A stretch of DNA of 29,439 nucleotides from IMG/VR virus record IMGVR_UViG_3300046012_000410, positions 1-29,439 of that record; one strand, given 5' to 3'. This document shows, in pieces, positions 4,139-28,861 of the stretch. The translations under genes were made by a program, and so were the position numbers. Within the stretch, counting starts at the first letter, position 1, and each line of letters opens with the position of its first letter. The notes beneath the pieces are model-generated. The model was not told where the DNA came from. It saw only the letters and a program-made list of their open reading frames with translations, and did no database searches. The stretch comes from a virus.

Positions 4139-4596
4139 GTTATTCCCCACATCGTTCCGAATTTCATGGCGATGCCGAGGTAGATCCGACCATAAGGCGT
4201 CTTGAGATTCTGCAATTGGTCGATGGTCAGATTCTGCAGGTTCTCAATAACCTCGATGCCAGCCGATGTCGCCTCGTCGCTGGCATTCGTTACCACACCA
4301 GAGGCGAATTGGCCGCATTTGAACTTCTCTCGAAGCCCTTTGAAGTAATCTGGCGTTACCGCCGTATCCGGGGCCAGATTTATGAGGAGATCGCCCGCCA
4401 GATTATAGACGGCGGTATTGTAGACAAGAGGCGACGCCACGCAGATCGCGCGCAGCACCGTATCGAGCGAGAATTGGAAAACATAGCAGATTACCGGTGC
4501 GTCAGAAGGCAGGCTGATCACCGGTATCTGCATTATATCGCGGATAAAAGCCTGAAACCCCGCAAGCGTTGGCGGCCCCGGATGTTTCAGGCTCAT
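4135..4596 (-). CDS. Head-tail connector-type protein, hypothetical
   Basis: A 153-residue protein starting MSLKHPGPPTLAGFQAFIRD. The middle (LVYNTAVYNLAGDLLIN) suits a helical adaptor that packs against the portal, and the C-terminal block NLKTPYGRIYLGIAMK looks conserved in phages with this kind of capsid operon. It lies two genes downstream of the major capsid gene. Head completion or connector function is inferred from position; I cannot name a family with certainty. Confidence 0.65.
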   Translation of the reverse strand: MSLKHPGPPTLAGFQAFIRDIMQIPVISLPSDAPVICYVFQFSLDTVLRAICVASPLVYNTAVYNLAGDLLINLAPDTAVTPDYFKGLREKFKCGQFASGVVTNASDEATSAGIEVIENLQNLTIDQLQNLKTPYGRIYLGIAMKFGTMWGIT

Positions 4597-26234: not shown

Positions 26235-26458
26235 GCGGACACCGGAGGCTCGGGGAGCGGTTGCCAGTGCGTCGGGTCGATATCAAGCATCCCGCCGTGA
26301 TCGCCCGCCTCCCACCACCAACCGATACAGTCGGAAGGGCCATCCGAATCCCATCGCATAAAAACAATTTCGGTTGCGTAGCATGAGCCTGGAATCCAAC
26401 CGAATATGAGAGAGCCATCCTTCGGTGCCGTATCGATCGGTTGCCACCTGTTCATCAC
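26231..26458 (-). CDS. DUF551-like small phage protein
   Basis: A 75-residue protein. The start MNRWQPIDTAPKDGSLIFGW and the end THWQPLPEPPVSA match the DUF551 signature found in many phages. The function of the family is unknown. Four-base overlap with the Mug113 gene upstream. Confidence 0.8.
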   Translation of the reverse strand: MMNRWQPIDTAPKDGSLIFGWIPGSCYATEIVFMRWDSDGPSDCIGWWWEAGDHGGMLDIDPTHWQPLPEPPVSA

Positions 26459-27033
26459 GAGGCACCTTTCGCATGAAGCGCCGCGAGGAAATCGGAGAGC
26501 TGGAGAACGGCACCCATCGCCCGCTCGACGTGCCGCTCCATTGCACGTGCGGCGGCTGGAGTAATTTCGTCGTCAGAGAGGCAATGGTCGGCCATGCAAA
26601 CGCCAACTTTCGCCATCTCGCGGGATGCCAGCCGTAGCGCTTTTTCCGGAGAATCAAGATTGATGACGACGGCCTTAAGTCTTTGCGCCTCCGCAGCAGC
26701 AAGCACGGAAAGGGCGGACGTAACCCCTACTTCTTCGAACGGCGCGGCGACGCGCTCGTTTCTGGGCTTCGCTGGCTCATCATCGACACATCCAAGCGGT
26801 TCGATGAAAGCAAGAAGCTCGGGAGTAGCCTCAAACCACTCGCCAGTTACCCGGGCTGAATGGAATCGCTCGTGAAGCGCCTTCTCCTCTTTGGCCTTCC
26901 CCGGAATCGCAGCCAACAGCCTGAGATGCGTAGGCAAACCGACTTGAAGATTGATCAGCCTTTCTCTCGGCCGTTTGGCGGTGCCGATCTTTATCCGGCG
27001 AGTGGCCGTATCTTCGATGAAGTAGACGGCCAT
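26455..27033 (-). CDS. Mug113/T5orf172-type (GIY-YIG-like) protein
   Basis: A 192-residue protein. Residues 1-75 are a Mug113/T5orf172 domain: VYFIEDTATRRIKIGTAKRP (GIY- and YIG-like strands), an R-x-R-E-R-L-I-N-L-Q helix, and KALHERF followed by VTGEWFEA. This superfamily includes nucleases and DNA-binding modules. The rest is helical with an acidic linker and no known domain. It is adjacent to a paralogous domain in the next gene upstream. Start ATG 27033 overlaps the previous stop by one base. Confidence 0.78.
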   Translation of the reverse strand: MAVYFIEDTATRRIKIGTAKRPRERLINLQVGLPTHLRLLAAIPGKAKEEKALHERFHSARVTGEWFEATPELLAFIEPLGCVDDEPAKPRNERVAAPFEEVGVTSALSVLAAAEAQRLKAVVINLDSPEKALRLASREMAKVGVCMADHCLSDDEITPAAARAMERHVERAMGAVLQLSDFLAALHAKGAS

Positions 27034-27467
27034 CAGGCGGCCTCGCCGAAGATGTCGGGCCGCAGCTCTTGTCGCGAGATACCGGTCAGCCGCTCGATCT
27101 GGATTGCGCGCTCAACGGGCACCTTGTCCCACTGGTATATGGCGGCGGCAGAGCAGCCGAGTTTCTTTGCAAGTTTCGGAAACCCGCCAGCCGACCGCGC
27201 GGCGCGGTCAAGCGGCGTATCCAAAGCTGTCGGGGGTTCTATGGTCATCATGGTCGGGCAATATTCGAACCACTCGCCCAAGCCTCGGCGGCTATCGTAA
27301 TGGCGATGCAACCAGCCCTCTTCGGCTGCGGTGCCGTCGATGGTGCGGATGATTTTGAGCGGCAGAAAATGCGCACACTGCAAATCGCGGCGTCGCAACT
27401 CAGCGTCAATCGCCCATCCGATCTTCACCCAATCGGTATCCCCGGCGCGGATGAAATATACGGTCAC
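27033..27467 (-). CDS. Mug113/T5orf172 domain fused to YdaS/Cro-type HTH
   Basis: A 144-residue protein with a GTG start at 27467, two bases after the Cro-type gene stop. Residues about 2-70 are a Mug113 domain (VYFIRAGDTDWVKIGW, then LHRHYDSRRGLGEWFEY) paralogous to the neighbour. Residues about 85-142 are an HTH of the YdaS/Cro type: SAGGFPKLAKKLGCSAAAIY, then VPVERAIQIERLTGISRQEL and RPDIF. YdaS proteins are phage repressor or antitoxin-like regulators. A nuclease-like module fused to an early regulator suggests sequence-directed DNA action or simply a regulator with an extra binding module. Confidence 0.78.
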   Translation of the reverse strand: MTVYFIRAGDTDWVKIGWAIDAELRRRDLQCAHFLPLKIIRTIDGTAAEEGWLHRHYDSRRGLGEWFEYCPTMMTIEPPTALDTPLDRAARSAGGFPKLAKKLGCSAAAIYQWDKVPVERAIQIERLTGISRQELRPDIFGEAA

Positions 27468-27469
27468 GA

Positions 27470-27676
27470 TCAGGCCGCCTCGCCCTTCGCCTGCGGCACG
27501 TTCGCAACAACCCGGCGCCACACGTCGAGCCGCGGCGTCGTGCGGCCATCATCGGTGCGCTTCCAGCGCTGCCACGTCGCGCGGTCGATTTCACATTTTT
27601 CGCAGAACTCATCGACCGTGATCCCCGCCTCTCTCAGGCGCGTCTCGATCTCTGGAATCGTCAAATTGAGGTCCAT
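27470..27676 (-). CDS. Cro-type small HTH regulator
   Basis: A 68-residue protein starting at ATG 27676, divergent from the repressor. LTIPEIETRLREAGITVDEF, then CEIDRATWQRWKRT, gives a helix-turn-helix followed by a short C-terminal helix. Position and size fit Cro, which competes with the repressor for the shared operators and favours lytic growth. The longer frame back to 27814 runs through the operator region and is not credible. Confidence 0.75.
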   Translation of the reverse strand: MDLNLTIPEIETRLREAGITVDEFCEKCEIDRATWQRWKRTDDGRTTPRLDVWRRVVANVPQAKGEAA

Positions 27677-27688
27677 GTGCGCACTTTG

Positions 27689-27704
27689 AGCGCATATTTG
27701 CGCA
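27689..27704. promoter_or_regulatory. Repressor operator, leftward side (site 1)
   Basis: A near-palindrome AGCGCA-TATT-TGCGCA lying 12 bases upstream of the Cro-type start. It is one of four matches to TGCGCA-N4-TGCGCA in the immunity region. An extra perfect GTGCGCAC lies at 27677-27684 beside the Cro-type ATG. Confidence 0.75.
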
Positions 27705-27744
27705 CATGCAAGCGCATTTTTTCTTGCTGCATTGCACACAGAGA

Positions 27745-27760
27745 TACGCATTAATGCGCA
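27745..27760. promoter_or_regulatory. Repressor operator at the repressor gene start (site 2)
   Basis: TACGCA-TTAA-TGCGCA, with a perfect 12-bp core CGCATTAATGCG. It overlaps the ATG at 27754 and lies just before ATG 27763, so binding would block transcription or translation of the repressor gene: autoregulation. Confidence 0.75.
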
Positions 27761-28512
27761 CCATGGACCAACTACTTGAAAAGCAACGCGCTTACATCCG
27801 CGCCGTGCTCGCAAAGACGGGGCTGGACGGCAAGGGCCTTGCGTTGCGCGCGGGCGTTCATGCGTCCACGATCAACCGGCCCCTAAACGATCCTGAATGG
27901 GCGGGGCGCTACAGCCTGACGACGCTTCTAAAGGTGCAGGATGCGAGCAAAGTGACTATTCCACCGGAACTTATTTCCAGCAGCACCCCCGCTAACGATT
28001 CGTTAACCGGCGATTCCCAAGATGATAATCAGTATATAACGAACGAAGCCATTCCCGCAGATGGGGTAAGGGGTCTCCCAAATGTGCGGTCTTGGCCCAG
28101 GGATGTGCCTATTTATGGGACTGCGGTTGGTGGTGATGGTTCGGGCGAGTTTTACTTTAATGGCGAGACGGCGGGTTATGCCCCTCGCGTACCGGCGCTG
28201 GCCGGCGTGATGAACGCCTTCGCGGTTTACATTTCTAATGACTCGATGAGCCCGGTTTTTCGGCCAGGCAAGCGCGTCTATGTAGATCCAAATCGACCGG
28301 CAACGCCCGGCGATTGGGTGTTGGTCGAACTTCACCCAGAGAATGGCGATCGCAACGGTGCCGCCCTCATCAAGAAACTCAAACGCCGCACCGCCAAGGA
28401 ATTGTTCCTCAACCAGCTCAACCCGGAAAAAGCTCAAGACATTGTGATACCGATGTCGCGGGTAAAGAACGTCTATCGAGCGCTCGACCCCTACGAATGG
28501 CTGGGCGAATAA
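27754..28512 (+). CDS. CI-like repressor with HTH and S24 peptidase-type domain
   Basis: A 252-residue protein. The N-terminal HTH region includes LRAGVHASTINRPLNDPE, followed by a linker rich in S, D and N. The C-terminal LexA/S24 fold has the serine motif SNDSMSPVFRPG (Ser in DSM), and a lysine in ALIKKLKRR. The normal Ala-Gly or Cys-Gly self-cleavage pair is not clear; the matching region reads TAVGGDGSG. It would bind the TGCGCA dyads as a dimer and keep the phage dormant, with loss of repression after DNA damage if cleavage works. Start is uncertain: ATG 27754 or ATG 27763; neither has a strong ribosome binding site, and the first overlaps operator site 2. Confidence 0.85.
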   Translation: MRTMDQLLEKQRAYIRAVLAKTGLDGKGLALRAGVHASTINRPLNDPEWAGRYSLTTLLKVQDASKVTIPPELISSSTPANDSLTGDSQDDNQYITNEAIPADGVRGLPNVRSWPRDVPIYGTAVGGDGSGEFYFNGETAGYAPRVPALAGVMNAFAVYISNDSMSPVFRPGKRVYVDPNRPATPGDWVLVELHPENGDRNGAALIKKLKRRTAKELFLNQLNPEKAQDIVIPMSRVKNVYRALDPYEWLGE

Positions 28513-28530
28513 CGCTCCGCTAAAATAATT

Positions 28531-28546
28531 TGCGCAAGCGTGCGCA
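28531..28546. promoter_or_regulatory. Repressor operator, rightward side (site 3)
   Basis: TGCGCA-AGCG-TGCGCA, an exact match of both half sites to the consensus. It lies 18 bases after the repressor stop and just upstream of the rightward promoter. Confidence 0.78.
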
Positions 28547-28553
28547 TTTATTC

Positions 28554-28582
28554 TTGACCGTGTGCATTTATGCGCATAAGGT
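28554..28582 (+). promoter_or_regulatory. Candidate rightward promoter with operator between -35 and -10
   Basis: A -35 hexamer TTGACC at 28554-28559 is followed by a 17-base spacer and TAAGGT at 28577-28582 as a weak -10. The spacer contains the operator TGTGCA-TTTA-TGCGCA at 28561-28576. Repressor bound there would block RNA polymerase. The -10 match is poor, so the exact start is uncertain. Confidence 0.58.
28561..28576. promoter_or_regulatory. Repressor operator inside the rightward promoter (site 4)
   Basis: TGTGCA-TTTA-TGCGCA, one mismatch from the consensus, filling the spacer of the candidate promoter. Confidence 0.75.
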
Positions 28583-28606: not shown

Positions 28607-28861
28607 ATGTCCATCCCGCTATCCCAATTCGAGACCATCGCCCGCCTGGTCGTTGACCGGACGGAAGCGCAGACGCGCCTTGAGCGCTACGCGCGGGCTT
28701 CGGCCTTCTCAGTATTCATTGCCGATGACGGGACAGCCTCAGAGCCGGTCCCTGACGCTCTCCTAGAGAGATTCCGCAACGCGCTAGTGGCGCACGCGAC
28801 GGCAGAGCTTGCCGCCGTGGACGCGGCCCTGCGCGCGCTCGACGTTGATCCCCAAGCGTAA
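28607..28861 (+). CDS. Hypothetical protein, first gene of rightward operon
   Basis: An 84-residue helical protein (begins MSIPLSQFETIARLVVDRTE). ATG 28607 has GGAG six bases upstream; the longer TTG frame is not needed. It is the first gene under the candidate repressed promoter. Function unknown. Confidence 0.68.
   Translation: MSIPLSQFETIARLVVDRTEAQTRLERYARASAFSVFIADDGTASEPVPDALLERFRNALVAHATAELAAVDAALRALDVDPQA

Follow-up and report, generated by a model that had tools for sequence, protein, structure and literature searches.

Repeated TGCGCA sites flanking a CI-like repressor gene as probable operators of a lambda-type immunity region in an uncultured phage

The operators OL and OR of phage lambda are 2.3 kb apart and are brought together by a loop (PMC3708714), and for the lambdoid phage 933W only five operator sites are reported (PMC10742460). 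The locus described here lies in a 29,439-base viral record of IMG/VR that was analyzed over its full length (hereafter the window). As in the lambda CI/OL/OR system, the window repressor combines a helix-turn-helix (HTH) domain with an S24-fold domain and its gene has putative operators on both sides, one set lying between the repressor and a divergent Cro-like gene, with a site placed for autorepression. The two systems differ in the site itself, which in lambda has 17 bp and in the window has 16 bp, is GC-rich and is made of palindromic half-sites, in the number of operators (six in lambda, whereas the window has four whole ones and a left site cut to a half-site), and in the compactness of the region, the left and right sets of the window being separated by only about 0.8-0.9 kb; for its relatives the figure is about 0.8-2 kb. 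These relatives carry three left and two right sites and can be likened to 933W by reported site number. The same three-left, two-right plan, including a site over the repressor start, is found in Acetobacter phage phiAX1 (repressor BCZ75881.1), which differs from the window in its HTH and in its likely operator, TGCGGG-N6-CCCGCA.

The C repressor of Rhizobium phage 16-3 resembles the window repressor in the C-terminal domain, where 109 residues align at 44.6% identity, but the match is confined to window residues 134-242 and excludes the HTH, and no whole-protein homology to the 16-3 C repressor family was found. The operators of phage 16-3 are ACAA-based. A literature search found no paper on TGCGCA phage operators. 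The switch design is the already known lambda one. The repeated TGCGCA sites are almost certainly the DNA switches by which the repressor holds the virus dormant, and we put at about 0.9 the probability that they are the operators of a lambda-type OL–cI–OR immunity region bound by the repressor HTH.

Sites, promoters and repressor of the window

The features of the region, with operators designated O (left) and R (right), are as follows.

27470..27676, minus strand: divergent HTH protein of 68 aa, Cro-like by position, recognition helix RATWQRWKR
27678..27683: additional half-site, TGCGCA, situated over the leftward start region at 11 bp from O1
27689..27704: left operator O1 (putative), AGCGCATATTTGCGCA, occupying the 17-bp spacer of the putative leftward promoter
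27706..27711, minus strand: -35 TTGCAT of the putative leftward promoter, 17-bp spacer, weak -10 CAAAGT at 27683-27688
27711..27716: left O2 (putative), AGCGCA half-site alone, distal half lost, 22 bp from O1, overlapping the -35
27745..27760: left operator O3 (putative), TACGCATTAATGCGCA, ending 2 bp ahead of the repressor ATG, in a position for autoregulation
27763..28512, plus strand: CI/LexA-like repressor of 249 aa, N-terminal HTH and C-terminal S24 domain
28531..28546: right operator R2 (putative), TGCGCAAGCGTGCGCA, exact copy, upstream of the rightward -35
28554..28559, plus strand: -35 TTGACC of the putative rightward promoter, 17-bp spacer, -10 TAAGGT at 28577-28582
28561..28576: right operator R1 (putative), TGTGCATTTATGCGCA, within the 17-bp spacer of the putative rightward promoter
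28607..28861, plus strand: first rightward gene, 84 aa, without family match, with a TTGGAG Shine-Dalgarno-like stretch upstream

The whole record was scanned with the pattern TGCGCA-N4-TGCGCA at up to one mismatch, using 100 dinucleotide-preserving shuffles as control. Four matches were obtained against a shuffle expectation of 0.20 (sd 0.45), and at least four sites were reached in 0 of the 100 shuffles. A previous sequence-only reading of this DNA had given the same four positions, 27689-27704, 27745-27760, 28531-28546 and 28561-28576, and had described the copies as sharing one sequence; all four do agree within one mismatch, but only 28531-28546 is exact, single mismatches being present at 27689 (AGCGCA), 27745 (TACGCA) and 28561 (TGTGCA). 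It had also named an equal motif density outside the immunity region as an observation that would speak against it, and outside this region the record holds zero sites at up to one mismatch. At three mismatches the count of 19 is not in excess of the shuffles (28.6), thus the signal resides in the near-exact copies. Single TGCGCA hexamers are likewise concentrated here, with six of the eight in the record falling within 27678-28576, and two half-sites (TGCGCA at 27678-27683 and AGCGCA at 27711-27716) add to the four sites reported previously. Every site is intergenic.

The putative operators overlap the promoters that they would control, two of them lying within -35/-10 spacers of putative promoters with weak -10s, in the arrangements TTGCAT-[GTGCGCAAATATGCGCT]-CAAAGT (leftward) and TTGACC-[GTGTGCATTTATGCGCA]-TAAGGT (rightward). 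The sequence-only reading had one copy filling a 17-base spacer, which is right for 28561-28576 in the rightward promoter but falls short in the count, since 27689-27704 does so in the leftward one. A sigma-70 scan with strict criteria yielded no promoter call and the -10 hexamers of both putative promoters are poor; the argument for these promoters is therefore that they recur in relatives, whose -35 frequently reads TTGACG or a near variant. R2 might also serve the repressor gene as a weak terminator hairpin. As to the repressor start, which one copy had been said to overlap, the site 27745-27760 stops 2 bp short of the likely ATG at 27763, and an overlap with the start would require use of the in-frame ATG at 27754. 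The start of the longest open reading frame (27706), which would place O3 inside the gene, was rejected because the O3-type site of relatives abuts the start codon.

The window protein fits a lambda-type (CI-like) repressor both in its N-terminal HTH and in its C-terminal S24/LexA fold with Ser-Lys dyad motifs. A Pfam search matched PF00717 (S24) with an E-value of 1.2e-9 and gave no HTH match, whereas the PHROG match (phrog_4 transcriptional repressor, 1.4e-16) comes from a profile that covers the N-terminal HTH, and a profile comparison with solved structures retrieved full-length lambda repressor (3bdn, 6.5e-11) and also the 434 repressor HTH. The HTH comprises helices 23-30 and 34-42, with recognition helix A-S-T-I-N-R and an AlphaFold pLDDT of about 90, and in fold comparisons the C-terminal domain of the AlphaFold model matched LexA at Z 11.9 and lambda CI at Z 11.4. 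The Ser-Lys dyad motifs are NDSMSP and LIKKL; the window segment 28130-28455 corresponds to the cleavage region and the S24 dyad. At the usual place of the Ala-Gly cleavage bond the repressor reads TAVGGDG (Val-Gly), with low pLDDT, which makes SOS self-cleavage (RecA-dependent induction) uncertain.

Relatives and the association of the sites with the HTH domain

HTH-based protein searches of IMG/VR led to the loci L007, L008, L010 and L011. Each has one dyad (T/C)CCGCA-N4-TGCGG(A/C) in the left promoter spacer, and the promoter beyond the repressor has a spacer dyad (T/A)CCGCA-N4-TGCGG(A/G). Scans of genome contigs with the repressor or its HTH gave no confirmed relative, the repressor HTH alone found nothing convincing in the phage collection (best E 0.3), and the L020 HTH had no convincing match among plasmids. 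One candidate, L012, was discarded as a false HTH match in a tail-like protein. For L005 and L006 the sharing is limited to the C-terminal domain, and their repressors had no recurrent TGCGCA-N4-TGCGCA dyad in the vicinity.

The full plan of three left and two right sites, with the repressor gene read rightward, is seen in L020, L093 and L084. On the left side of relatives, O1 lies in the promoter spacer, O2 typically over the -35 (TGCGC-TTG) and O3 one base before the start codon; the two right sites flank and fill the right promoter and in most relatives are 22-24 bp apart. The position of O1 is matched in L007, L008, L010, L011 and L212, and by layout in L020, L093, L029 and L084; O2 is whole or near-whole at 22-24 bp from O1 in L020, L093 and L034, and at 33 bp in L084; the equivalent of O3 reads TGCGCA-C-ATG in L020, L093 and L084, with a similar arrangement in L029; R1 is matched in L007, L008, L010, L011, L212, L029 and L084. 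In L007, L008, L010, L011 and L212 the half-site at 27678 is kept as TGCGGA or TGCGCA, again 11 bp away from O1. Conservation in phages with a similar repressor had been put forward as a check, and in those with a similar DNA-binding domain, few of which were found, the position of the sites with respect to the genes is indeed preserved. Of this plan, O1, O3, R1 and R2 are complete in the window, O2 is reduced to a half-site and R2 and R1 are spaced 30 bp apart; both features depart from the pairs of relatives, which are 22-24 bp apart, so that cooperativity may differ in the window.

Further repeats were observed near these regions. In L007 (5618-5782), L008 (3590-3720) and L010/L011 (3590-3720) the repressor gene is immediately followed by four to five tandem repeats, each about 35 bp long and made of a TTGACA-like stretch and a palindrome that varies by phage (TTGCGCGCAA, AAAAGCCATGGCTTTT, GGGTGCGCGCACC), and a tandem-repeat protein (repeated HSAETRAKMSEAQRGKA) is encoded next to the immunity region in L084 (1632-2018).

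IMG/VR was also scanned at the DNA level only, for two sites 5-35 bp apart, with the scrambled pattern CGGCA-N4-TGCCG as control, and the resulting loci were screened with an HMM built solely from the HTHs of the window, L007, L008 and L010. The HTH was present in 14 of 101 site-pair loci, in 13 of them within 1.65 kb of the pair, and in 0 of 91 control loci (Fisher p 9e-5); near-duplicates among the 14 (L041/L058; L020/L108/L098/L053) reduce them to about ten lineages. The other 87 site-pair loci are without HTH, many of them presumably being chance matches in GC-rich DNA. When the pattern was anchored to a -35, over the whole collection TTGACG followed by CCGCA-N4-TGCGG occurred in only five stretches, all at such a repressor and including the new locus L212, and TTGAC followed by TGCGCA-N4-TGCGCA occurred in six, five of them with the HTH (L029, L084, L214, L215, L217), the sixth (L216) having a site adjoining the -35 without HTH match.

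Natural domain swaps indicate that the operator tracks the HTH. The phiAX1 repressor and that of L108 have the C-terminal domain in common, at 77% over 211 aa and almost without differences toward the C-terminus, and differ in the HTH; phiAX1 (L208) contains no TGCGCA dyad and has its own sites, likely operators, at 2749-2836 and 4493-4541. Conversely, in L084, L112 and L102 the HTH is carried by short proteins with a quite different C-terminus and the TGCGCA-type sites are retained. The residue that follows S-T-[ILV] in the recognition helix is N or V in proteins whose phages carry TGCGCA sites; with TCCGCA sites it is Q or H, a combination that characterizes the clade of L007, L008, L010/11 and L212. 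In the tree the window adjoins this clade with modest support, and the replacement of N by Q/H together with that of TGCGCA by TCCGCA was probably a single evolutionary change, so that the link between residue and base stays hypothetical. We offer only tentatively the proposal that HTH and operator form an exchangeable specificity cassette, placed on unrelated C-termini (active S24, degenerate S24, short non-S24) with the operators staying matched, in which one recognition-helix position (N38 in the window, Q/H in the L007 clade) sets base 2 of the half-site (TGCGCA vs. TCCGCA).

The analysis yields a predicted operator and immunity specificity, obtained from sequence alone and backed by natural domain swaps, for uncultured temperate phages of one group. 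The HTH-operator pairs, from about a dozen lineages, represent a ready-made small set for testing the DNA choice of recognition helices, and they can be used to predict prophages with common immunity.

Two side observations concern the patterns themselves. Two or three pairs of the control pattern CGGCA-N4-TGCCG, separated by about 0.4-1.9 kb, are present in L179, L185, L188 and L193, where they may represent the operators of another repressor family. In L066 (2994-3029) and L073 (3718-3753) TGCGCA recurs uninterrupted every 10 bp (four half-sites), and the HTH was not found in these loci.

Model of the switch, alternative readings and neighboring genes

Repressor binding, dimerization, cooperativity and autorepression at the window sites are inferred. 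The repressor HTH would bind TGCGCA-N4-TGCGCA presumably as a dimer, one subunit per half-site, the half-site centers being 10 bp apart, i.e. one helical turn. Repressor at O1 and R1 would fill the -35/-10 spacers and silence two operons, the divergent Cro-like one and the rightward one. When bound at O3, which adjoins the repressor start codon, it would limit its own transcription; R2 and the O2 half-site would assist through adjacent binding. The left and right sets may be joined by a loop, which their distance would allow. The proposal of the sequence-only reading that a single repressor acts on the left, the right and its own promoter remains the best one, given the rarity of the site elsewhere and its conserved positions next to a similar HTH.

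The sites could instead serve mainly the divergent Cro-like protein (27470-27676), the repressor binding elsewhere or weakly. A short divergent gene, HTH-like in most cases, is present beside O1 (within about 40 bp) in 16 of the 16 related loci examined, and in several phages the Cro-like protein (APSTFTRWK, APSTFNRWR) and the repressor have similar recognition helices. We consider this reading improbable, since the operator changes together with the recognition helix of the repressor in the L007 clade, and since the -35-anchored scans and the HMM enrichment tie the sites to the repressor HTH, a comparison made for the repressor HTH only. CI and Cro of lambda share operators, and the window Cro-like protein may use the same sites as the repressor.

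Even less credit can be given to the dyads acting as RNA hairpins, i.e. attenuators or terminators, rather than as DNA operators. TGCGCA-N4-TGCGCA can indeed fold into a 6-bp stem with a 4-nt loop and a T-rich stretch follows 28531-28546, but the folding is unexceptional (z -0.4 to -2.0), and on these scores the hairpin reading was rejected. Moreover, two sites lie inside promoter spacers and thus upstream of the transcript of that promoter, several relatives have separate terminators (GC-rich hairpin and T-run) before the right sites, and the pair spacing is near-constant at 22-24 bp. That a host regulator binds the sites and that their placement around the repressor gene is coincidental seems hardly conceivable: TGCGCA is a common short palindrome, yet the rest of the record lacks such sites altogether, and across IMG/VR their presence follows one phage HTH type.

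With the sites read as repressor operators, the gene order (Cro-like gene, operators, repressor, operators, rightward operon) gives the lambda arrangement. The divergent 68-aa gene is by its position the Cro-like counterpart in such a region, and its product has weak HTH_31/HTH_26 and PHROG regulator matches. Farther along the minus strand, the protein encoded at 27033-27521 shows a weak MUG113 domain (E 0.002) fused to a YdaS/P22-Cro-type HTH, and 26455-27033 encodes a protein of MUG113/T5orf172 type whose CII-like match is weak; nuclease-like domains are here combined with phage regulators.
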